Below are positions 23,595-31,656 of a DNA stretch of 64,000 bases, piece by piece (position 1 is the first letter of the stretch; each line of letters starts with the position of its first letter). The position numbers and the translations under genes were made by a program. The notes below the pieces were generated by a model that was given only the letters and a program-made list of their open reading frames with translations, ran no database searches and had not been told where the DNA came from. The stretch comes from Agathobaculum butyriciproducens (GTDB lineage Bacteria; Bacillota; Clostridia; Oscillospirales; Butyricicoccaceae): assembly GCA_003096535.1 (NCBI GenBank), contig QEKJ01000003.1, positions 1 through 64,000 of the forward strand. Reading direction: 5' to 3'.

Positions 23595-24179
23595 TTATAC
23601 GTTGGGTGCAAGCAGGATGGGCTGAAGCTGTCTGCCGTTCATGGCTGCGTCAATGGCAGCGGGAATCAGCGTCATATCTGCGACAAGCGAGCGCGGCTTG
23701 CTGTGCGGCGCATCCTGCCGGAGCGGCACGAAATAGTAATGCCGGCGATTCAGCAGCGTGCCGAGATTGGCGGCGCTGCCGGACAGACCGTCGTTGGTGG
23801 AGACCGCCAGCACGACCGGACGTTCTCCGCGCAGATGGCTTTTGACCGCCATGGTTGCAGGCGTGTCCGTCAGACCGTGCACCAGTCTGGCGAGCGTATT
23901 GCCCGTGCATGGAGCAACGATCAGTATATCAAACAGCGCCTTCGGTCCAATCGGCTCGGCGGAAACAATGCTGTCGATAGGGGAGATGCCGGTGAGTGCG
24001 GTCAGCTCCTCGCGCCAGTGCGCGGCGGTGCCAAAGCGGGTGTCGAGTGTACCGGCGCTGTCGGACAGAATCGGCGTGACCGTGTCGCCGCGCTCGATGA
24101 GTGCTTGTATAACCGGCATGACCTTGGCAAAGGTACAGAACGAACCGGTCAGTACAAAGCCAATGCGGAGTTTGCTCAT
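23595..24179 (-). CDS. spoVFB: Dipicolinate synthase subunit B
   Basis: 194 residues of the flavoprotein-like SpoVFB family: RIGFVLTGSFCTFAKVMPVIQALIERGDTVTPILS, LIVAPCTGNTLARLVHGLTDTPATMAVKSHLR and NDGLSGSAANLGTLLNRRHYYFVPLRQD. With SpoVFA it makes dipicolinic acid in the mother cell for the spore core. Its start overlaps the spoVFA stop by 4 bp (ATGA). Because spoVFA is interrupted upstream, full expression of this operon from the spoVFA promoter would need excision of the intervening element. Confidence 0.95.
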   Translation of the reverse strand: MSKLRIGFVLTGSFCTFAKVMPVIQALIERGDTVTPILSDSAGTLDTRFGTAAHWREELTALTGISPIDSIVSAEPIGPKALFDILIVAPCTGNTLARLVHGLTDTPATMAVKSHLRGERPVVLAVSTNDGLSGSAANLGTLLNRRHYYFVPLRQDAPHSKPRSLVADMTLIPAAIDAAMNGRQLQPILLAPNV

Positions 24180-24658
24180 AAGATGCCCTCCTCGTGCAGA
24201 ATGGTGTCCACGGTATCGAATACCGCGCGTGCAGCGCTGAGCGGTGCTACCTTGCCCGGAAGAGACAGTGCGTGCAGCACGCGGCAGCCATCCGGAAGCA
24301 GGGTATCGGCGGCAACACCGCCCGGCAGAGATGCAAGATCAATGATGAAGCAGGGCGGTTTCATGTCGGATAGTACCTCGGTTGTCAGGATCGGAGCGGG
24401 TACGGTGTTGAAAATCAGGTCAAAACCGGCAAGGTGACCGGCGAGCCTGCGTGTATCCAGTGCGTGCAGTCCTGCGGCGGCGATGCGTGCAAAATCACGC
24501 GTACAGCGTGCGGAGACTGTAACCTGTGCATCGAGAGCGTACAATTTGCGTGCAAGAAGCATGCCGATCCGTCCGGCACCAATCACCAGACAGCGTGCAT
24601 TTTGCAGCGTGAACGCAGTTTGCTCCATCGCGAGCTGAAGTGCTCCCTCGCAGGTAGG
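24176..24658 (-). CDS. spoVFA: Dipicolinate synthase subunit A, 3' part of the split gene
   Basis: The last about 160 codons of spoVFA, beginning (P)TCEGALQLAMEQTAFTLQNA and running through the NAD-binding CLVIGAGRIGMLLARKL and FIIDLASLPGG to a normal stop. The N-terminal domain is absent here; its codons lie at 31212-31607 on the same strand. Upstream sequence in the same frame (KANPFMRQTANAF) belongs to the inserted element. Intact relatives have about 290-300 residues and read N-S-I-P-T-V-E-G across this point. Confidence 0.9.
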   Translation of the reverse strand, partial: PTCEGALQLAMEQTAFTLQNARCLVIGAGRIGMLLARKLYALDAQVTVSARCTRDFARIAAAGLHALDTRRLAGHLAGFDLIFNTVPAPILTTEVLSDMKPPCFIIDLASLPGGVAADTLLPDGCRVLHALSLPGKVAPLSAARAVFDTVDTILHEEGIL

Positions 24659-24667
24659 GAAGGCGTT
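24656..24667 (-). other. Recombination junction, spoVFA 3' side
   Basis: Minus strand AAC-GCC-TTC-CCT. It shares AACGC (24663-24667) and CCT (24656-24658), in frame and at equal spacing, with the other junction. The crossover must lie in one of these short identities. Confidence 0.75.
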
Positions 24668-24728
24668 AGCGGTTTGGCGCATAAACGGGTTTGCTTTCGC
24701 ATAGACTGCAAGCGAAGGAGGGATAGCC

Positions 24729-24866
24729 ATGAAACTGACCGAACAGGAGCAGGCTGCTGTTTCGCGCGGCATGATCGAGGGTCTGCTCCGCGCTTTGCAC
24801 GCGGAAGGCGTGCTGCCGCCCGAGCGTCTGGAGCTGGTGCTCGAGCTGCTGTGCGCAGGCCGCTGA
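24729..24866 (+). CDS. 45-aa SHOCT-like small protein before the recombinase
   Basis: MKLTEQEQAAVSRGMIEGLL followed by RALHAEGVLPPERLELVLEL, ending LCAGR. AAGGAGG at 24715-24721 is 7 bp before ATG, and the recombinase start follows the stop by 1 bp, so the two are co-translated. The L-x(2)-EG-x-(L/I)-x(3)-(E/R) helix pattern resembles SHOCT-type short domains. Small genes next to serine recombinases often affect directionality, so a role in excision control is possible but unproven. Confidence 0.75.
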   Translation: MKLTEQEQAAVSRGMIEGLLRALHAEGVLPPERLELVLELLCAGR

Positions 24867-24867
24867 C

Positions 24868-26193
24868 ATGCTGCGCGTGGCCGCCTATTGCCGCGTTTCC
24901 ACCTCGCAGGAGGACCAGAGAAACTCGCTGGAGAATCAGCGGCGATATTTTTCGGAGTACATCAGCCGCCAGCCGGACTGGGAGCTTGTGGAGGTTTATG
25001 CGGACGAGGGTCTGTCCGGCACCTCGTCCGACCGGCCTGCCTTTCGGCGCATGCTGGCAGCGGCAGCAGAAGAGAAAATTGACCTGATTTTAACCAAAGA
25101 GGTCTCACGCTTTGCCCGAAATACGGTTGACACGCTCGCGTACACGAGGCTGCTGCGCCGTCAGGGAGTCGGTATTGTATTCATTGGAGATCAGATCGAC
25201 ACCCGCCAGAACGACGGTGAATTTCGGCTTACCATAATGGCAAGCGTAGCGCAGGAGGAGAGCCGCAAAATCTCTGAGCGCGTCAAGTGGGGGCAGCAGC
25301 GCTCGATGGAGCGCGGTGTGGTGTTCGGATGCGATAATATTTACGGGTTTTCCCTGCGGGGTGGGGAATTGACAGTGAATCCCGAACAGGCGGCAGTCGT
25401 CCGCGAGGTGTATCGCCGTTTCTTGATGGACGGCAAAGGTACTTACATCATCGCACGGGAGCTGACCGCCGAGGGCATCCCGCCGCCAAGCGGAAAAGGG
25501 AAATCGTGGTCGTCTACGATGGTGCTGCGGCTGCTCCGGAGCGAGAAATACTGCGGCGATCTTCTGCAGCGCAAAAGCTGCACGCCGGATTTTCTCGATC
25601 ATCGCAAGGTGAAAAATGAGGGGCAGTCACCGCAGGTCTATCTGCGGGATCATCACGAGGCGATTGTGCCGCGCTCGATGTTCGAGGCTGTCCGGCGGGA
25701 ACTCGACCGCCGGCAGGCAAACCGCAAAGCCGGCAGCCGACCCTCCGCGCGGTACTGGTGCTCCGGAAAAGTGGTCTGCGGACGGTGCGGCAGTCGGTTT
25801 GTGCCGCGCAGAGGGGCACAGGCGGACGGCGGTCTGCGATGGGTGTGCGGGAAACGGGTGCAGCACGGCGTGGCAGCGTGTGCGGCTCCGGCAGTTGGGA
25901 ATCGGATTTTGCTGGACTGCATGAAGCAAATTGTACAGGATTTACCAATCGGCATGGAGATGGTATTGCGGCAGACCTTGCGCGCCATACCCGACCTCAC
26001 ACGCACCGAAAGGCAGCAATTCTGTACAATTTTACGAAAAAAGCTGTACAGTGAAACGGTTTACAGCGCGCTGCTCGATCATATCACCGCAACGGGGGAG
26101 GGCTTGACTGTATATCTGCACGGCGTGTCCGAACCGCTGCATTTCGAACTTTCGGGCAGAGAAAAACCGTCCGTGCAGCGCACGGACGGCTGA
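24868..26193 (+). CDS. Large serine recombinase of the spoVFA element
   Basis: The 441-residue protein has a resolvase catalytic domain (AAYCRVSTSQEDQRNSLENQ, nucleophile Ser11; LTKEVSRFARNTVDTL; MASVAQEESRKISERVKWG). A recombinase domain follows (NIYGFSLRGGELTVN, IARELTAEGIPPPSGKGKSW, ILRSEKYCGD-like), then a zinc ribbon (VVCGRCGSRFV, WVCGKRVQHGVAAC) and a short C-terminal part. It is the same class as SpoIVCA of skin. It sits about 210 bp from the spoVFA junction, transcribed away from it, and ends 3 bp from the convergent ttcA gene. Confidence 0.95.
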   Translation: MLRVAAYCRVSTSQEDQRNSLENQRRYFSEYISRQPDWELVEVYADEGLSGTSSDRPAFRRMLAAAAEEKIDLILTKEVSRFARNTVDTLAYTRLLRRQGVGIVFIGDQIDTRQNDGEFRLTIMASVAQEESRKISERVKWGQQRSMERGVVFGCDNIYGFSLRGGELTVNPEQAAVVREVYRRFLMDGKGTYIIARELTAEGIPPPSGKGKSWSSTMVLRLLRSEKYCGDLLQRKSCTPDFLDHRKVKNEGQSPQVYLRDHHEAIVPRSMFEAVRRELDRRQANRKAGSRPSARYWCSGKVVCGRCGSRFVPRRGAQADGGLRWVCGKRVQHGVAACAAPAVGNRILLDCMKQIVQDLPIGMEMVLRQTLRAIPDLTRTERQQFCTILRKKLYSETVYSALLDHITATGEGLTVYLHGVSEPLHFELSGREKPSVQRTDG

Positions 26194-26196
26194 ACA

Positions 26197-27057
26197 CTAT
26201 TCGCTTTTCTTTCCGCGTTCGTCGTAATCATCGAGGAACGAGTGGAGCACGCCGCCGGTCTTGTAACCGGGCATCATGTCCAGATTTACCGCGTGGATGC
26301 TGTTGAAAATGCTGCGCTCGATATTCGGGTTGTCGCGGCGCAGACGGCGCAGCAGGATCTTGACCTCCTGCCGCTTGGAACCGCCGCCGCCGTTGTCGCA
26401 CATCGTGCAGTTTTCGGTGAAGCGGCACGCGCACTGGATAAATTCGAGGTTGTTATACTGCTTCCACGCGAGAATATCCTCCTCATGAATGCAGTACAGC
26501 GGACGAATCAGCTCCATGCCTGCAAAGTTGGTGCTGTGCAGCTTGGGCAGCATGGCCTGCATCTGTGAGCCATAAAACATACTCATCACGGTGGTTTCGA
26601 TGACGTCGTTGAAGTGGTGGCCAAGTGCGATCTTGTTGCAGCCAAGCTCCTGCGCCTTGCTATACAGATAGCCGCGGCGCATCCGCGCACACAGGTAGCA
26701 CGGGTTTTTCTCGCTGCTGTTGGCGACCGCGAAAACATCGGTCTCGAACACGGTGATCGGGATATGCAGCAGCGCGGCGTTGCTCTCGATCTTATTGCGG
26801 TTGATCTCGTTGTAGCCGGGGTCCATAACGAGGAAAACTACCTCAAACGGCACCTCGCTGTACCGCTGGAGCAGCTGCATCAGCTTGGCCATCAGCATGG
26901 AATCCTTGCCGCCGGAGATGCACACGGCGATCTTGTCGCCCGGCTGAATCAGCTGATACTGTCGAACCGCCAGTGTAAACGGGTTCCAGATGGTCTTGCG
27001 GAATTTTTTGATGATACTGCGCTCGATCAGCTCGTGCGGCTGTAAATCTCGTTTCAT
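26197..27057 (-). CDS. TtcA-family tRNA 2-thiolation protein
   Basis: 286 residues with the ATP-pyrophosphatase PP-loop ISGGKDSM near residue 49, CYLCARMRRGYLY (CxxC) near 118, GHHFNDVIET near 145, and a distal C-A-C / CTMC group near 210-220. These fit TtcA enzymes that carry an Fe-S cluster and make s2C32 in tRNA. It is co-transcribed with the cysteine desulfurase 16 bp upstream, a plausible sulfur donor. It lies inside the spoVFA element. The exact tRNA target is inferred. Confidence 0.85.
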   Translation of the reverse strand: MKRDLQPHELIERSIIKKFRKTIWNPFTLAVRQYQLIQPGDKIAVCISGGKDSMLMAKLMQLLQRYSEVPFEVVFLVMDPGYNEINRNKIESNAALLHIPITVFETDVFAVANSSEKNPCYLCARMRRGYLYSKAQELGCNKIALGHHFNDVIETTVMSMFYGSQMQAMLPKLHSTNFAGMELIRPLYCIHEEDILAWKQYNNLEFIQCACRFTENCTMCDNGGGGSKRQEVKILLRRLRRDNPNIERSIFNSIHAVNLDMMPGYKTGGVLHSFLDDYDERGKKSE

Positions 27058-27073
27058 AATGATGCTCCCTGTA

Positions 27074-28195
27074 TTACTTGACTAACTCGTGATAGCACGC
27101 GTCGAAAACGGACAGAAATTCGTCGATTTCCGCGTCCGTGGTAAGGTGGCTCAGGCTGATGCGCCATGAGGACAGTGCATTTCTGCGATCACGGCTGACA
27201 GCAAACACTGCACGGGACGGCAGACCGTCTGCCGAGCAGGCGGATTTGACCGATACGCACACGCCTTTTTCGGACAGCGCGCGCTGAAATACGGTGCCTT
27301 TCACATTCTTGACGCTCAGATTGAGGATATGCGGCACGGTGTGCTCCGGACTGTTGATATGCACCGCGGGATACGCCGCAAGTGCCTTCCGAAGCCGTTC
27401 GCTGTGGCGCTGAACGACCGCACAGCGGCTCTCACGCTCATCGCATGCCAGCTGCAGTGCCAGCGCAGATGAAGCCGCCAGACCGAGTGCAGGCGTGCCG
27501 CTGCGGTACAGCGTCGTGCTGGCACCGCCGTTCATCTGCGGCTCGAGCGGCATACGGCTGCGCTTAAGCAGCACGCCGCTCCCGCAGATGCCGCCAAACT
27601 TGTGCGGCGCAAAGCTCAGCGTGTCGATACCGGAAAAGTCCACCGGGATGCGTCCGATAGCCTGCGTTGCGTCAATGTGCAGACGGCAGTTCGGATGGTC
27701 AGCCAGCAGCGCTGCGATTTCGTTTACCGGCTGAATGGTGCCAAGCTCGCTGTCCACCGCGCAGATGGCAACGAGAACGGTATCCGGACGCAGAAGCTCG
27801 CGCACTTCCTCCGGGTCAACCGTGCCGTCCAGACCGATGGAGAGCAGGTCAATCTCCCAGCCGCGCTCCTGCAGGGCGGTCAGGCTGCCGCTGACCGAGG
27901 AATGCTCGAGCGGTGTGGAGATGATATGCTTGCCGATATGCCGTGACGCCTGTGCGATGCCCTTGATGGCGAGGTTGTTCGCCTCGGTCGCACCCGAGGT
28001 AAAGATGATCTCGGCAGGGGACGCGCCGGTCAGTGCCGCAATCTGCTCGGTGACACGCGCCATTTCCTCACGGGCGGCTTTGCCAGCCGCGTGTACCGAG
28101 TTCGGGTTGGCCGGGAAGCGGCGTTCCATATCGCAGAATCGCTCGAGCACCACGGGGTCAGCGGGTGCATGGGCGGCATAATCGAGATAAATCAT
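27074..28195 (-). CDS. Cysteine desulfurase (NifS/IscS family)
   Basis: The 373-residue class V PLP enzyme starts IYLDYAAHAPADP. It shows TSGATEANNLAIKG near residue 65, the PLP Lys in SFAPHKFGGICGSG near 205, and the mobile-loop Cys in VSVKSACSADG near 325. It releases sulfur from cysteine as persulfide. With ttcA directly downstream it probably feeds tRNA thiolation; NifS-like desulfurases dedicated to one partner are common in Firmicutes. It has its own promoter at 28231-28259. Confidence 0.93.
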   Translation of the reverse strand: MIYLDYAAHAPADPVVLERFCDMERRFPANPNSVHAAGKAAREEMARVTEQIAALTGASPAEIIFTSGATEANNLAIKGIAQASRHIGKHIISTPLEHSSVSGSLTALQERGWEIDLLSIGLDGTVDPEEVRELLRPDTVLVAICAVDSELGTIQPVNEIAALLADHPNCRLHIDATQAIGRIPVDFSGIDTLSFAPHKFGGICGSGVLLKRSRMPLEPQMNGGASTTLYRSGTPALGLAASSALALQLACDERESRCAVVQRHSERLRKALAAYPAVHINSPEHTVPHILNLSVKNVKGTVFQRALSEKGVCVSVKSACSADGLPSRAVFAVSRDRRNALSSWRISLSHLTTDAEIDEFLSVFDACYHELVK

Positions 28196-28230
28196 AGCAT
28201 GGACTCCTCAAAATAAGGTTAACGGCTATA

Positions 28231-28259
28231 ATCATAGCATTCTTATAGGAAAAAGTCAA
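28231..28259 (-). promoter_or_regulatory. sigma-A promoter of the desulfurase-ttcA operon
   Basis: TTGACT (28254-28259) and TATGAT (28231-28236), 17-bp spacer, minus strand. Confidence 0.7.
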
Positions 28260-28270
28260 GATGGACAGAA

Positions 28271-28304
28271 AAAGACTGCTGTCTCCGATGAAACAGCAGT
28301 CTTT
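28271..28304 (-). terminator. Terminator of the que operon
   Basis: AAAGACTGCTGT pairs with ACAGCAGTCTTT. A T run follows on the minus strand, just beyond the queC stop. Confidence 0.85.
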
Positions 28305-28308
28305 TGTT

Positions 28309-28995
28309 TTACCTCATTGCGGGGTCGGTCACGCCGTTGGCCTCGAACGCGCGGATGCGATCCAGGCAGGTGCCGCACTTGCCGCACGGCTTGTCGCCGC
28401 CCTCGTAGCAGCTCCACGTCAGCTGATAGGGAACCTGCAGCCGCAGACCTTCGGCAACGATCTGCGCCTTGTTCCAACGCACGAACGGAGCCTCGATGCG
28501 GACATCACCGCCCGAGCCGAGTACGATGGAGTGGTTCATTGCATTTACGAAATCCTCACTGCAGTCGGGATAGGCATTGCCGGCGGCATCGTCGTGATGC
28601 GCACCGTAGTAAATCACGCTGCAGTTCTTGGACAGCGCAACGCTGGCCGCTGCCGACAGGAACAGACCGTTGCGGAACGGCACATAGGTCGTAACCGGCT
28701 TGCCGCCGCGCTGCGCGAGCTGCTCGGCGTAGGATTCCTCGGGGATGTCCTCGGTCGAGTGGGAAAGCAGCGAGCAGTCGCTGTACGCGAACACCGGCGT
28801 CAGGTCGAGAGACGTGCCCTCGATGCCGTAGTATTCGAGAACCGCCTTTGCAGCCTGGATCTCCTTAACGTGCTTCTGACCGTAGTAAATGGACAGCGCG
28901 CACACATTCTCCTTGCCGTGCTTCTCGATGGCAAGCGCAAGACAGGTTGTGCTGTCCACGCCGCCGCTGCACAGGACCATTGCCTTTTCGCTCAT
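28309..28995 (-). CDS. queC: 7-cyano-7-deazaguanine synthase
   Basis: 228 residues with the PP-loop [15 protein letters not shown] near residue 9, [33 protein letters not shown], and the zinc site [19 protein letters not shown] near 200-215. It converts CDG to preQ0 in queuosine synthesis. Its start overlaps queF by 4 bp. queD, queE and folE are not in the window, so they must be elsewhere or the pathway is partial. Confidence 0.96.
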
Positions 28996-29489
28996 CGGTT
29001 GTCCACCTTCTCCGGGTACAGATCGTGGTGGGTGAGACGCTCGAATGCAACCTCCTCCCAGCGGGTGCCGGGCTTGCCGTAGTTGCAGTACGGGTCGATC
29101 GAGATGCCGCCGCGCGGTGTAAATTTGCCCCAGACCTCAATGTACTTCGGATCCATCAGGCGGATGAGGTCCTTCATAATGATGTTTACGCAGTCCTCAT
29201 GGAAATCGCCGTGGTTGCGGAAGCTGAACAGATACAGCTTGAGCGACTTGCTCTCTACCATGCGCTCGCCGGGCACATAGGAGATATAGATAGTAGCAAA
29301 GTCCGGCTGGCCGGTCATCGGACACAGGCTGGTGAACTCCGGGCAGTTGAACTTGACAAAATAGTCATTGTCCGGATGCTTGTTCGGGAAAGTCTCCAGC
29401 ATTTCGGGCGCGTAGTCCGAGGGATACTGGTTCTTCTGGCTGCCCAGCAGAGTGACGCCGTTCAGTTCTTCTTTATTTCTTCCGGTCAT
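28992..29489 (-). CDS. queF: NADPH-dependent preQ0 reductase
   Basis: 165 residues of the short (YkvM) QueF type. The catalytic Cys is in [16 protein letters not shown] near residue 56, followed by [27 protein letters not shown] and the C-terminal [18 protein letters not shown]. It reduces preQ0 to preQ1. It follows queT and overlaps queC. Confidence 0.96.
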
Positions 29490-29512
29490 GGTTGCATTCT
29501 CCTTACATTTAA

Positions 29513-30010
29513 TTAGGCCTTAGTTGCCTTGGGATACAGTGCACGCTGCAGTACGTTCACCAGAACGACACCGCAGACCGCAGGTACGGACTGACCGATG
29601 CACAGGCTGGTGGCAAGTACAGAATACGGAACGTGCAGCAGATAGCTCAGATAGCTCGGTACGCCGAGACCGGGCACAAGGATGATCGGGAGGATCATCA
29701 GCCAGAGGCTCCAGCCCTTGCGGCGGATGAGCACGATGATCGCGGTAACGATGATACCGACGAAGCAGCCTCCGAACCAGTCCAGCAGACCGAGTCCGCC
29801 GAACAGAAAGTTGGCAATGAAATTCGCGAAACCAAGCGGCAAAACCAGGAACGGAAACAGGTAAGCGAGCGCATACAGAGCCGTCGCAATGCGGATCTGG
29901 TACGCACCGAAAGAGAAGCTCTGCGTAAAGTACAGCACAACAACGTAAAGTGCCATCACCATAGCAGAAACGGTCAGTTTTTGAACCTTGCTCATGTTTT
30001 CTTTTACCAT
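29513..30010 (-). CDS. queT: QueT-type transporter, ECF S component
   Basis: 165 residues from ATG 30010 behind GGAGGTG; the open frame to 30043 lies upstream of this site. About five to six membrane helices ([67 protein letters not shown]) match the QueT family. The family is thought to import queuosine precursors with a shared ECF module, which is not in the window. A preQ1 riboswitch-like leader precedes it. Confidence 0.93.
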
Positions 30011-30080
30011 ATTTCGTTCACCTCCAAATAATGCACACAACAACGTTGATTGAGAAACGTAAAGTTTTTCTGTTTCGTTG

Positions 30081-30154
30081 TCCCTAGTTTTGTTTTACGA
30101 CAGGATGGTTTCGAACTGTCATTCCATATCCGGAAGCAAAGTGCCGAACGGCAC
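30081..30154 (-). promoter_or_regulatory. preQ1 riboswitch-like leader of queT-queF-queC
   Basis: Minus-strand leader with a hairpin GTGCC-GTTC-GGCAC, then a GACAG/CTGTC stem enclosing a loop, then an A-rich linker and AAAACTAGGGA. The final CTAGG motif with the A-rich strand is typical of preQ1 aptamers (pseudoknot tail). Its size and its gene (queT in Clostridia) favour the class III type. A further stem ACAACGAAAC/GTTTC..GTTGT lies between it and the queT ribosome site and may be the expression platform. A covariance-model check has not been done. Confidence 0.6.
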
Positions 30155-30161
30155 AAACGAT

Positions 30162-30190
30162 AGTATAGCGTATTTTTATCGTTTATGCAA
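30162..30190 (-). promoter_or_regulatory. sigma-A promoter of the que operon
   Basis: TTGCAT (30185-30190) and TATACT (30162-30167), 17-bp spacer, minus strand, just upstream of the riboswitch-like leader. Confidence 0.75.
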
Positions 30191-30284
30191 GTGTAAAAGC
30201 ACCAAAATGCGTTTTTTGATAGAGAGATTATGCGGTTTCACAGAGAAGCGCAGAGCACCTGTCTGGTTGGGAGAAAACCGGACA

Positions 30285-30323
30285 TTCGACAGAAAAAATG
30301 CGGTCTTGTCGAAAATTGTCGAT
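30285..30323 (+). promoter_or_regulatory. Cluster of three 0A-box-like sites
   Basis: TGTCGAA occurs at 30307-30313 and, inverted, at 30285-30291. TGTCGAT lies at 30317-30323, exactly 10 bp after the first. The 0A-box consensus is TGTCGAA. The sites lie about 115-150 bp before the Spo0A-like gene at 30437, so control by Spo0A or autoregulation is likely. Confidence 0.6.
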
Positions 30324-30436
30324 AAATATGCGGGAAAAAGCAGGGATATCCGCTTGCGCGGACGCGCTGAATATGTAAAAATAAGATGTAATCCATCAAT
30401 CGGCATAAGATAGAGAAAGCCGGGGGAAAGCAGTAA

Positions 30437-31180
30437 ATGAAGATCAAACAAGGCAAAATGCGTATTTTACTGGCGTGTGCGGACGAGTCTCTGCTGAAAC
30501 AGACAAAACGGCTTATGCAGGCGAGCAAAGAGCTGGAGCTTGTCGGCTGTACGTCGAACGGCACGAAGGCGTGGGAAATGATTCGACAAAAAATGCCGGA
30601 TATGGTCGTGCTGGATACCGACCTGCCATATGCGGACGGCTTTGCCGTTGCGTCATGGATGAGACAGAATAAGATGTGGGATACGAGCATTATCCTGCTC
30701 AGCTCGTTCATCGGCGGTCAGACCTATGTGGAGTGCAGCCTGCTGCACATTAACGTGCTGCTGCGTAAGCCAATCTGCGCGGATGCACTGTATGAGCGCA
30801 TCAAGCTGGCGGTCACCTGTACCAGTCGGGGAGACACGGTGGAGCAGCGGCTGGCCCAGATCCTGCGTGAGCTGGGTATGCGCGAGCAGACGATCGGCTA
30901 TCAGTGTGCATTGCTGACCGTGTGCCTGTATCGGGAGACCGACGGTGCCAGCATCACCAAGATCATTTACCACAGTGTCGCGCAGCAGATGAACAGCGAA
31001 GGCAGTAATGTGGAGCGCAATATGCGCTATGCCGTTCACCGCGCATGGGATAAGTGTGATAAAGCCGTGCTTGCCAGGTATTTCGGTGAAGCGCGTGCAC
31101 AGGATAAGGAGCCGCCGAGCAACCGCGAATTCTGTGCGGCTCTCGTGGAGTATCTCCGGCAGGAAGCCTGCCGCCTGTAA
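30437..31180 (+). CDS. Spo0A paralogue (response regulator)
   Basis: The 247-residue protein has a receiver domain at about 8-125: acidic ADES, phospho-acceptor region VVLDTDLPYADGF, LLSS, and Lys in LLRKPI. A C-terminal Spo0A-type DNA-binding domain spans about 140-245 (LAQILRELGMREQTIGYQCALLTV, ITKIIYHSVAQQM, SNVERNMRYAVHRAWDK, PPSNREFCAALVEYL). The recognition-helix segment differs from the near-invariant SRVERAIRHAIE of true Spo0A, so this is a diverged copy. It sits 30 bp from the spoVFA junction, inside the element, and may tie excision to sporulation. Confidence 0.85.
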   Translation: MKIKQGKMRILLACADESLLKQTKRLMQASKELELVGCTSNGTKAWEMIRQKMPDMVVLDTDLPYADGFAVASWMRQNKMWDTSIILLSSFIGGQTYVECSLLHINVLLRKPICADALYERIKLAVTCTSRGDTVEQRLAQILRELGMREQTIGYQCALLTVCLYRETDGASITKIIYHSVAQQMNSEGSNVERNMRYAVHRAWDKCDKAVLARYFGEARAQDKEPPSNREFCAALVEYLRQEACRL

Positions 31181-31211
31181 CCGGACAGCCTGTGCTTTTT
31201 GCAAATGCGGC

Positions 31212-31223
31212 AGGTACCGCGTT
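31212..31223 (-). other. Recombination junction, spoVFA 5' side
   Basis: Minus strand AAC-GCG-GTA-CCT, sharing AACGC and CCT in frame with the junction at 24656-24667. After it the frame runs on into element sequence (AAFAKSTG..), unrelated to SpoVFA. Confidence 0.75.
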
Positions 31224-31607
31224 GCGGATCGCCAGCTCCTCGCGGGATAAGTAGTCGATGAGTGTCAGTCCGTTCTGCACCGCGCGGGCGTGTACGGAAA
31301 AGGGCACGGCACCGGCCAGCGTCAGCGTTCCGGCGGGAATGGCATCGAGTACATCGCCAATCGTGTGCTGTGCATTGGCAAGCGGCGCGTTCAGACTGCC
31401 GTCCCCCGTCTGCACCGGCATAGGCAGAATGACCGCGCGTGCGTCAGCAAGGCACGCCTGCAGGTCACTTGCAGCCGTGCAGCCTGCGGCGGGGCGGCGC
31501 TCGAGTGCAAATGTGCGCACGGTGTGGCCTGCTTCATGCAGCAGCTCGGCTAAATATGCCTGACGCACGTCGCCGCCGACGACGGCGAGAGTCGTCGATT
31601 GATTCAT
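31212..31607 (-). CDS. spoVFA: Dipicolinate synthase subunit A, 5' part of the split gene
   Basis: The first 132 codons from ATG 31607 (AAAGGAGG 11 bp upstream): LAVVGGDVRQAYLAELLHEAGHTV, ARAVILPMPVQTGDGSLNAPL, TLTLAGAVPFSV, LIDYLSREELAIRNAVP. This is the N-terminal substrate domain of SpoVFA up to the conserved N-A-V-P. Past the junction the frame continues into element sequence, giving a useless hybrid if translated. A late mother-cell-type promoter candidate lies at 31629-31656. Confidence 0.92.
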
Positions 31608-31628: not shown

Positions 31629-31656
31629 CATTCTATGCCGGATGCAAAAGAGGAGT
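31629..31656 (-). promoter_or_regulatory. Candidate sigma-K (or sigma-E) promoter of spoVFA
   Basis: Minus strand AC (31655-31656), 17 bp, CATAGAATG (31629-31637). The sigma-K form is AC-N16/17-CATA-N3-TA, with one mismatch here. B. subtilis spoVF is sigma-K dependent. Confidence 0.45.

Follow-up and report, generated by a model that had tools for sequence, protein, structure and literature searches.

Both the heat resistance of spores and their germination rest on dipicolinic acid (DPA), and in the genome of Agathobaculum butyriciproducens the gene spoVFA (dpaA), coding for subunit A of dipicolinate synthase, is interrupted. The window analyzed here comprises the first 64,000 nucleotides of contig QEKJ01000003.1 (assembly GCA_003096535.1), in which spoVFA, located on the minus strand, is cut at the proline codon of the sequence N-A-V-P-T by an insert of 6,556 bp, counted between equivalent bases. 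The question raised by this locus is whether the gene has been inactivated or is put together again when spores are made. From the comparison of this locus with split and intact genes of related bacteria, it is very probable that the insert is a sporulation gene-intervening element, whose own recombinase would rejoin spoVFA by programmed, skin-like excision in sporulation.

Joining of the two gene parts after the CCT triplet common to both junctions gave an uninterrupted frame of 291 amino acid residues, reading AIRNAVP-TCEGALQ across the join. The sequence-only reading of the window had described halves of 132 and 159 codons lying 6,556 bp apart, together with a large serine recombinase about 210 bp from one junction. 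The halves were confirmed by their matches to DpaA_N (SpoVFA residues 7–120) and PRK08306 (Table 1), the C half scoring under the whole-protein cut-off of the latter as expected of half a protein, and the recombinase gene starts 213 bp from the C-half junction. No second DpaA_N match was found elsewhere in the source genome (57 contigs totalling 2.8 Mb, with a completeness of 99.7%), and thus no trace of the intact additional spoVFA that the same reading had named as contrary evidence. Precise removal of the insert restores the spoVFA frame, as in the sporulation gene-intervening elements skin, vfbin, gin, SPbeta/spsM and yin, and the insert encodes a site-specific serine recombinase near its attachment site attR, which is a further property of such elements. 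An assembly artefact or chance is an unlikely origin of the interruption, since the same codon is split in many other genomes, including one assembled in two contigs (G012).

The joined SpoVFA protein was searched against 149 genomes, the source genome (G000) included. Among the 25 genomes of the genus, spoVFA was split at the same codon in 12 and intact in eight, the latter being the uninterrupted relatives with which the sequence-only reading had suggested comparing the locus; the remaining five (G001, G006, G010, G014 and G016) gave no real match, though three of them are at most 82% complete. The same-codon split was also found in eight genomes outside the genus, among them G047, G049 and G067 from the same family, G138 and G247 from another family of the order, and G394 and G442 from another order of the class (108 genomes sampled). 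The elements range in length from about 2.5 kb (G009 and G021) to about 45 kb (G024), those of G004, G007, G011, G013, G067 and G394 being cut by contig ends. SpoVAC was detected in 24 of the 25 genus genomes, suggesting that the members of the genus are likely spore formers. Genome G010 (one contig of 4.0 Mb) contains SpoVAC and no real spoVFA match, and of its Spo0A-type matches the best two are a partial one and one with 28% identity.

Both gene halves appear to have been kept under constraint. None of 15 split genes contains a stop or frame error in either half (G247 was added separately), so that the decay of both halves in relatives, which had been foreseen as an objection, is not general. 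At the 63 positions invariant in 29 intact genes, 994 of the 1008 residue cells are unchanged in 16 split genes; leaving out 12 of the 29 intact genes one at a time gave 63/63 to 63/65. Rough ratios of nonsynonymous to synonymous substitution rates (dN/dS) were about 0.07–0.25 in each half, split–split pairs included. Another reading is that SpoVFA works as two polypeptides, a DpaA_N domain and a Rossmann domain, with the island irrelevant to function. The split is indeed near the domain boundary, as judged from the extent of the DpaA_N match, and in eight of 17 elements the C half is preceded by some in-frame start, an ATG or one following a Shine-Dalgarno (SD) sequence; in G049 (ATG) and G011 (GTG) the SD-like match is weak. 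In the other nine elements (G002, G008, G009, G013, G021, G024, G047, G067 and G247) the open stretch before the C half has neither an ATG nor an SD-preceded GTG or TTG, and for this reason the C half is not generally makeable alone. Furthermore, the N-half tails of the 16 elements read extend for 5 to at least 300 codons with no common end. A two-piece protein is therefore disfavoured, and we regard it as very improbable.

Where the split occurs, the intact genes of the genus have the sequence CGYAAYGCNRTNCC-NAC. The clearest attP, that of G024, consists of a 15-bp inverted repeat on either side of 10 bp that have CC as their midpoint; its arms match at 18 of 23 positions, as do those of G049 and G138, and those of G247 match at 20. 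Arm symmetry reached p ≤ 0.02 versus shuffles in 13 of 17 elements. Since CC is on the axis of these four strong inverted repeats, CCT (core CC) is favoured as the crossover; the sequence-only reading had offered AACGC or CCT for restoring the 291-codon frame. The recombination core is most likely the CC of the invariant spoVFA proline codon. The 7-mer TACCTGC, the longest exact match between the junctions, was rejected as the crossover because its copies are in different codon registers and a join there would break the frame.

The sequence CATANNNT, which we take to be a –10 element of the sigE/sigK type, is present between the junction and a small open reading frame (ORF) in 12 of the 13 elements having the recombinase at the C-half end, 0.34 being expected by single-base shuffling. 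This ORF, of 37–50 residues, precedes the recombinase gene in 13 elements and aligns over its length; in the source element its stop lies 1 nt before the recombinase ATG. It gave no known-family match in NCBIfam or PHROGs. A model built on it also produced weaker matches ahead of some other recombinases (for instance L055), which rules out an ORF special to spoVFA elements; recombinases of this type may have such a partner in general. Ahead of spoVFA itself, CATAGNNT was found in 11 of the 11 upstream regions printed, and the CATAGAAT of the source genome is presumably a sigK-type –10.

On these grounds, the island-encoded recombinase would act at the CC of the invariant proline codon, and spoVFA would stay split both in vegetative growth and in the spore line. 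During sporulation, mother-cell RNA polymerase of the sigE or sigK type would transcribe the small ORF and the recombinase gene from the promoter-like sequence, and the small protein would probably turn the recombinase to excision. The island would then leave the doomed mother-cell chromosome as a circle, and the spoVFAB operon, with spoVFA rejoined in frame, would be expressed from its own putative sigK-type promoter to make dipicolinate synthase.

Table 1. Features of the spoVFA locus and its intervening element (positions in the window).
Feature	Positions	Strand	Evidence
spoVFB (dpaB, presumed from position), flavoprotein, directly downstream of spoVFA 3′ half	23595..24179	-	Pfam Flavoprotein, E 1.9e-25
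spoVFA 3′ half, 159 codons plus stop	24176..24655	-	NCBIfam PRK08306 (DpsA) model positions 134-291, E 3.7e-52; PDB 3d4o, dipicolinate synthase A, E 1.5e-26
Intervening element, 6,556 bp	24656..31211		Junction join and equivalent-base count
attR core CCT	24656..24658	-	
CATAGACT, putative sigE/sigK-type –10 ahead of small ORF and recombinase	24700..24707	+	CATANNNT motif
Small ORF, 45 residues, strong ribosome-binding site; candidate recombination directionality factor	24729..24866	+	Related ORF in 13 elements
Large serine recombinase, 441 residues	24868..26193	+	Pfam Resolvase, Recombinase and Zn_ribbon_recom; PHROGs integrase phrog_95, E 2.3e-116
Cargo: PP-loop ATPase, TtcA-like	26197..27057	-	NCBIfam TtcA, E 2.5e-56, below its cut-off
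Cargo: NifS/IscS-like cysteine desulfurase	27074..28195	-	Matches below equivalog cut-offs
Cargo: queC (only match in source genome)	28309..28995	-	Profile match
Cargo: queF	28992..29489	-	Profile match
Cargo: queT transporter, start codon unsure	29513..30043	-	Profile match
0A-box-like sites upstream of spo0A paralog: TGTCGAA at 30285 (-) and 30307 (+), weaker TTGTCGAT at about 30316 (+)	30285..30323		
Spo0A paralog, receiver domain and Spo0A_C, 247 residues	30437..31180	+	Spo0A_C, E 8.2e-23; Response_reg, E 2.3e-13
attL core CCT (Pro codon; central CC)	31212..31214	-	
spoVFA (dpaA) 5′ half, 132 codons, ends NAVP	31212..31607	-	Pfam DpaA_N, E 1.3e-24
CATAGAAT, putative sigK-type –10 ahead of spoVFA	31630..31637	-	CATAGNNT in 11/11 upstream regions printed

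Alternatively, an ordinary integrative element could have inactivated spoVFA, the host making spores without DPA, using another DPA route or having lost sporulation. The five genus genomes without a real spoVFA match would fit such an event, as would two genes of other genomes. In G046 the N half is spread over two reading frames close to the end of a contig (L160, G046:C201), terminating at the usual codon and followed by an attL-like sequence, with no C half found; this may be a decayed split gene or a sequence error. In G421 (L155, L156) the interruption of spoVFA is near codon 191, next to an integrase gene that we take to be Tn916-like; it is probably an ordinary insertion and was left out of the split count. 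Besides the state of G046, several points weigh against programmed excision: the attP arms of the source element are only weakly symmetrical (7/23, p 0.31) and those of G008, G012 and G013 are also not significant; G024 has no CATANNNT near attR; the count of this motif leaves out G049, G067, G138, G247 and G442, with the recombinase elsewhere in the element; the dN/dS values are rough because dS is near saturation; and the selection test set excludes the halves of G011, G046, G394 and G442. Simple inactivation, for its part, is hard to reconcile with the conservation of both halves in 16 split genes, with the presence of related recombinases at this codon in different families and in a further order, and with a mother-cell-type –10 on the recombinase operon, and we give it little probability.

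The 18 spoVFA-site recombinases that were read are related to one another. In a quick tree the 17 then known formed one clade; a careful tree, with G442 added and an outside root, and with eight rows omitted (L118–L122, which duplicate spoVFA elements, the short L057, and L006 and L107), did not draw them as one clade, and the one-clade topology was not rejected (approximately unbiased test, p-AU 0.52; 18 spoVFA-site versus 41 other recombinases). The gene has another place or orientation in the elements of G049, G067, G138, G247 and G442. An order-wide search gave a recombinase match at E 1e-100 or better in 34 of 295 genomes and yielded G247; most of the recombinases with loci from this search were not beside spoVFA in the short flanks checked, and none of 16 recombinase loci from a scan of genome contigs had a spoVFA match in the DNA examined. 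Patterns of close relatives of the recombinase gave no match in viral contigs, and a phage origin was set aside, yet phrog_95 is a phage-integrase family and a phage ancestor is possible.

The split and intact states need eight changes on the SpoVFA tree, and two recombinase lineages of the genus cut across the SpoVFA relationships, the sisters G008 and G012 carrying different ones; the islands thus seem to have been gained, lost or exchanged repeatedly. Such mobility would agree with excision occurring at random in vegetative cells or on transfer to new hosts, in the manner of integrative and conjugative or integrative and mobilizable elements, with no sporulation programme, and so would the further recombinase-like genes and the defence or glycan-type cargo of G138 and G024. 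Against it stand the promoter motif of mother-cell type and the fact that both gene halves have been kept, and no transfer gene was recognized among 26 cargo proteins scanned in relatives, a minority of the cargo of the large elements. Unprogrammed excision as the whole account is rather unlikely; it is compatible with programmed excision in sporulation, and our estimates for the two are not shares of one total.

Known sporulation intervening elements have as targets sigK, spoVFB, spoVR, spsM, gerE and yabG (PMC4191935, PMC10747680, PMC5595907, PMC5025042), this and the following comparisons being limited to the accessible parts of the cited papers. The list given in the sequence-only reading stood except for the missing yabG (PMC10747680), and its statement that no case in spoVFA was known agrees with our literature search, which found no published spoVFA/dpaA intervening element, most subscription papers being outside its reach. 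The element vfbin in spoVFB of Bacillus weihenstephanensis (Abe 2013, as described in PMC4191935, PMC10747680 and PMC5025042) likewise intervenes in a dipicolinate synthase gene and is reported to excise during sporulation; it differs in affecting subunit B, in its Bacillus host and in the phage-related genes attributed to it, whereas here subunit A is affected, phage structural genes are missing, the cargo varies and some of the elements have a Spo0A paralog. The element gin in gerE of Bacillus cereus ATCC10987 is also a non-phage element that restores a sporulation gene by a serine recombinase, but it is 28.6 kb long, contains three recombinases and has gerE as target, and its GirC needs GirX (PMC5595907). 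The skin element of Clostridioides difficile, also in Clostridia, combines a serine recombinase with a small protein, CD1234, of 72 residues and under sigE/SpoIIID control; in contrast to the spoVFA elements its target is sigK, and its recombinase is also vegetatively expressed and apart from the directionality factor (PMC5025042). The small ORF of the spoVFA elements is directly before the recombinase, and its likeness to CD1234 is by description only. New with respect to the described elements are spoVFA as the gene hit, the varied non-phage cargo, a receiver-bearing Spo0A paralog in seven elements and clustered 0A boxes in four.

In the 6.6-kb source element all seven large genes have assignments other than phage structural genes, two of the cargo genes being of sulfur-transfer type, and no relaxase or transfer gene was found among its genes. 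Other genomes of the genus have a queC in five of 24 cases, on contigs apart from spoVFA, and the queuosine operon was rejected as a constant part, only the source element having it among those read by tblastn. Elsewhere the cargo includes type IV pilus-type genes and MATE (G002), HGD-D and MATE (G247), an N6 methylase with a restriction-type helicase, a macro domain and a DEAD helicase (G138), a RecQ-like helicase, an ABC protein, UDP-galactopyranose mutase and a protein of class II glutamine amidotransferase type (G024), YitT (G008), xanthine/uracil permease (G011 and G017), MMPL (G047) and a chemoreceptor (G049). Of the 26 relatives' proteins scanned, which represent part of the large elements, three had no family match.

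The gene at the N-half end of the source element, ending about 30 bp from that junction, codes for a Spo0A paralog that is 30–33% identical to the regular Spo0A of the genus and scores 110 bits against the NCBIfam equivalog TIGR02875 (cut-off 200), and hence is not canonical Spo0A. The sequence-only reading had mentioned neither the paralog nor the small ORF ahead of the recombinase gene, and had noted neither the promoter motif of mother-cell type nor how broad the family is. The seven best matches of the paralog in 60 genomes, the source included, are all in spoVFA elements (G000, G007, G008, G009, G012, G013 and G021); it was not present in the other elements read and so is not a constant part, those of G004 and G067 being incomplete in this respect. 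The seven proteins keep the residues which we take to be the phospho-acceptor Asp, the Ser/Thr and the Lys of the receiver. Of the Asp-Asp that presumably starts the acidic pocket, G009 has kept one half and the other six neither, Asp/Glu being present only adjacent to it, and this makes ordinary phosphorylation doubtful.

Within 260 bp upstream of the seven paralog genes there are 10 TGTCGAA sites (two each in G000 and G007, three each in G009 and G013), 0.21 being expected, compared with two in the other 22 kb of the same elements examined. The signal is one of clustering, since the whole window contains 11 such sites versus 10.2 by chance. Tandem 0A-box spacing of 10 bp is seen in G007, G009 and G013, and also in G000 if the weak site is counted. 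The boxes are not common to all seven elements, G008 and G021 having none and G012 a weak one.

The regular spo0A of the source genome is located elsewhere, on contig C1 (L157, G000:C1:6000-9000), and its product has Glu (GAA) at the phospho-acceptor position, occupied by Asp in seven other aligned Spo0A proteins of the genus; this is either a real change or an assembly error. A 63-residue open frame with a Spo0A C-terminal end lies about 10 kb from it (L158, G000:C1:16500-18500). Homologs of spo0A borne by phages likewise place the Spo0A DNA-binding domain on mobile elements of gut spore formers; in the accessible text they are reported as truncated and without a receiver, whereas the element protein has both domains (PMC10294663). 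In PHROGs the element paralog matched, in two stretches, one family of 278 positions, phrog_37855, a length which suggests that longer phage Spo0A homologs may exist. The literature search gave no paper on Spo0A paralogs with mobile elements.

A second split site was found in G036 and G048, where spoVFA runs past codon 134 and is cut near codon 240, as placed approximately, at a conserved PGG motif; the same contig carries the tail about 16–17 kb further along, next to spoVFB (G048: L085, L065; G036: L086, L159). The nearest serine recombinase in these elements, which would be the one acting there, is far outside the family found at the proline codon, and the second split is apparently independent of the first.

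If spoVFA is indeed rejoined by programmed excision, DPA synthesis depends on a prior DNA rearrangement in various Clostridia, whose spoVFA would be mistaken in annotation for a broken gene although they form spores. The conserved proline codon is an integration hotspot in several families and in another order and, as a second conserved motif is interrupted next to an unrelated recombinase, these elements may be favoured by selection rather than accidental. The Spo0A paralog carried by some islands would link a mobile element to the sporulation decision. Tentatively, and with the balance leaning somewhat the other way, the spoVFA islands could be seen as self-governing developmental elements which tie DPA formation to their own excision, and thereby their survival to spore formation, some of them using their own 0A-box-driven version of Spo0A to time excision or bias the decision to sporulate, while offering a docking place for exchangeable host genes.

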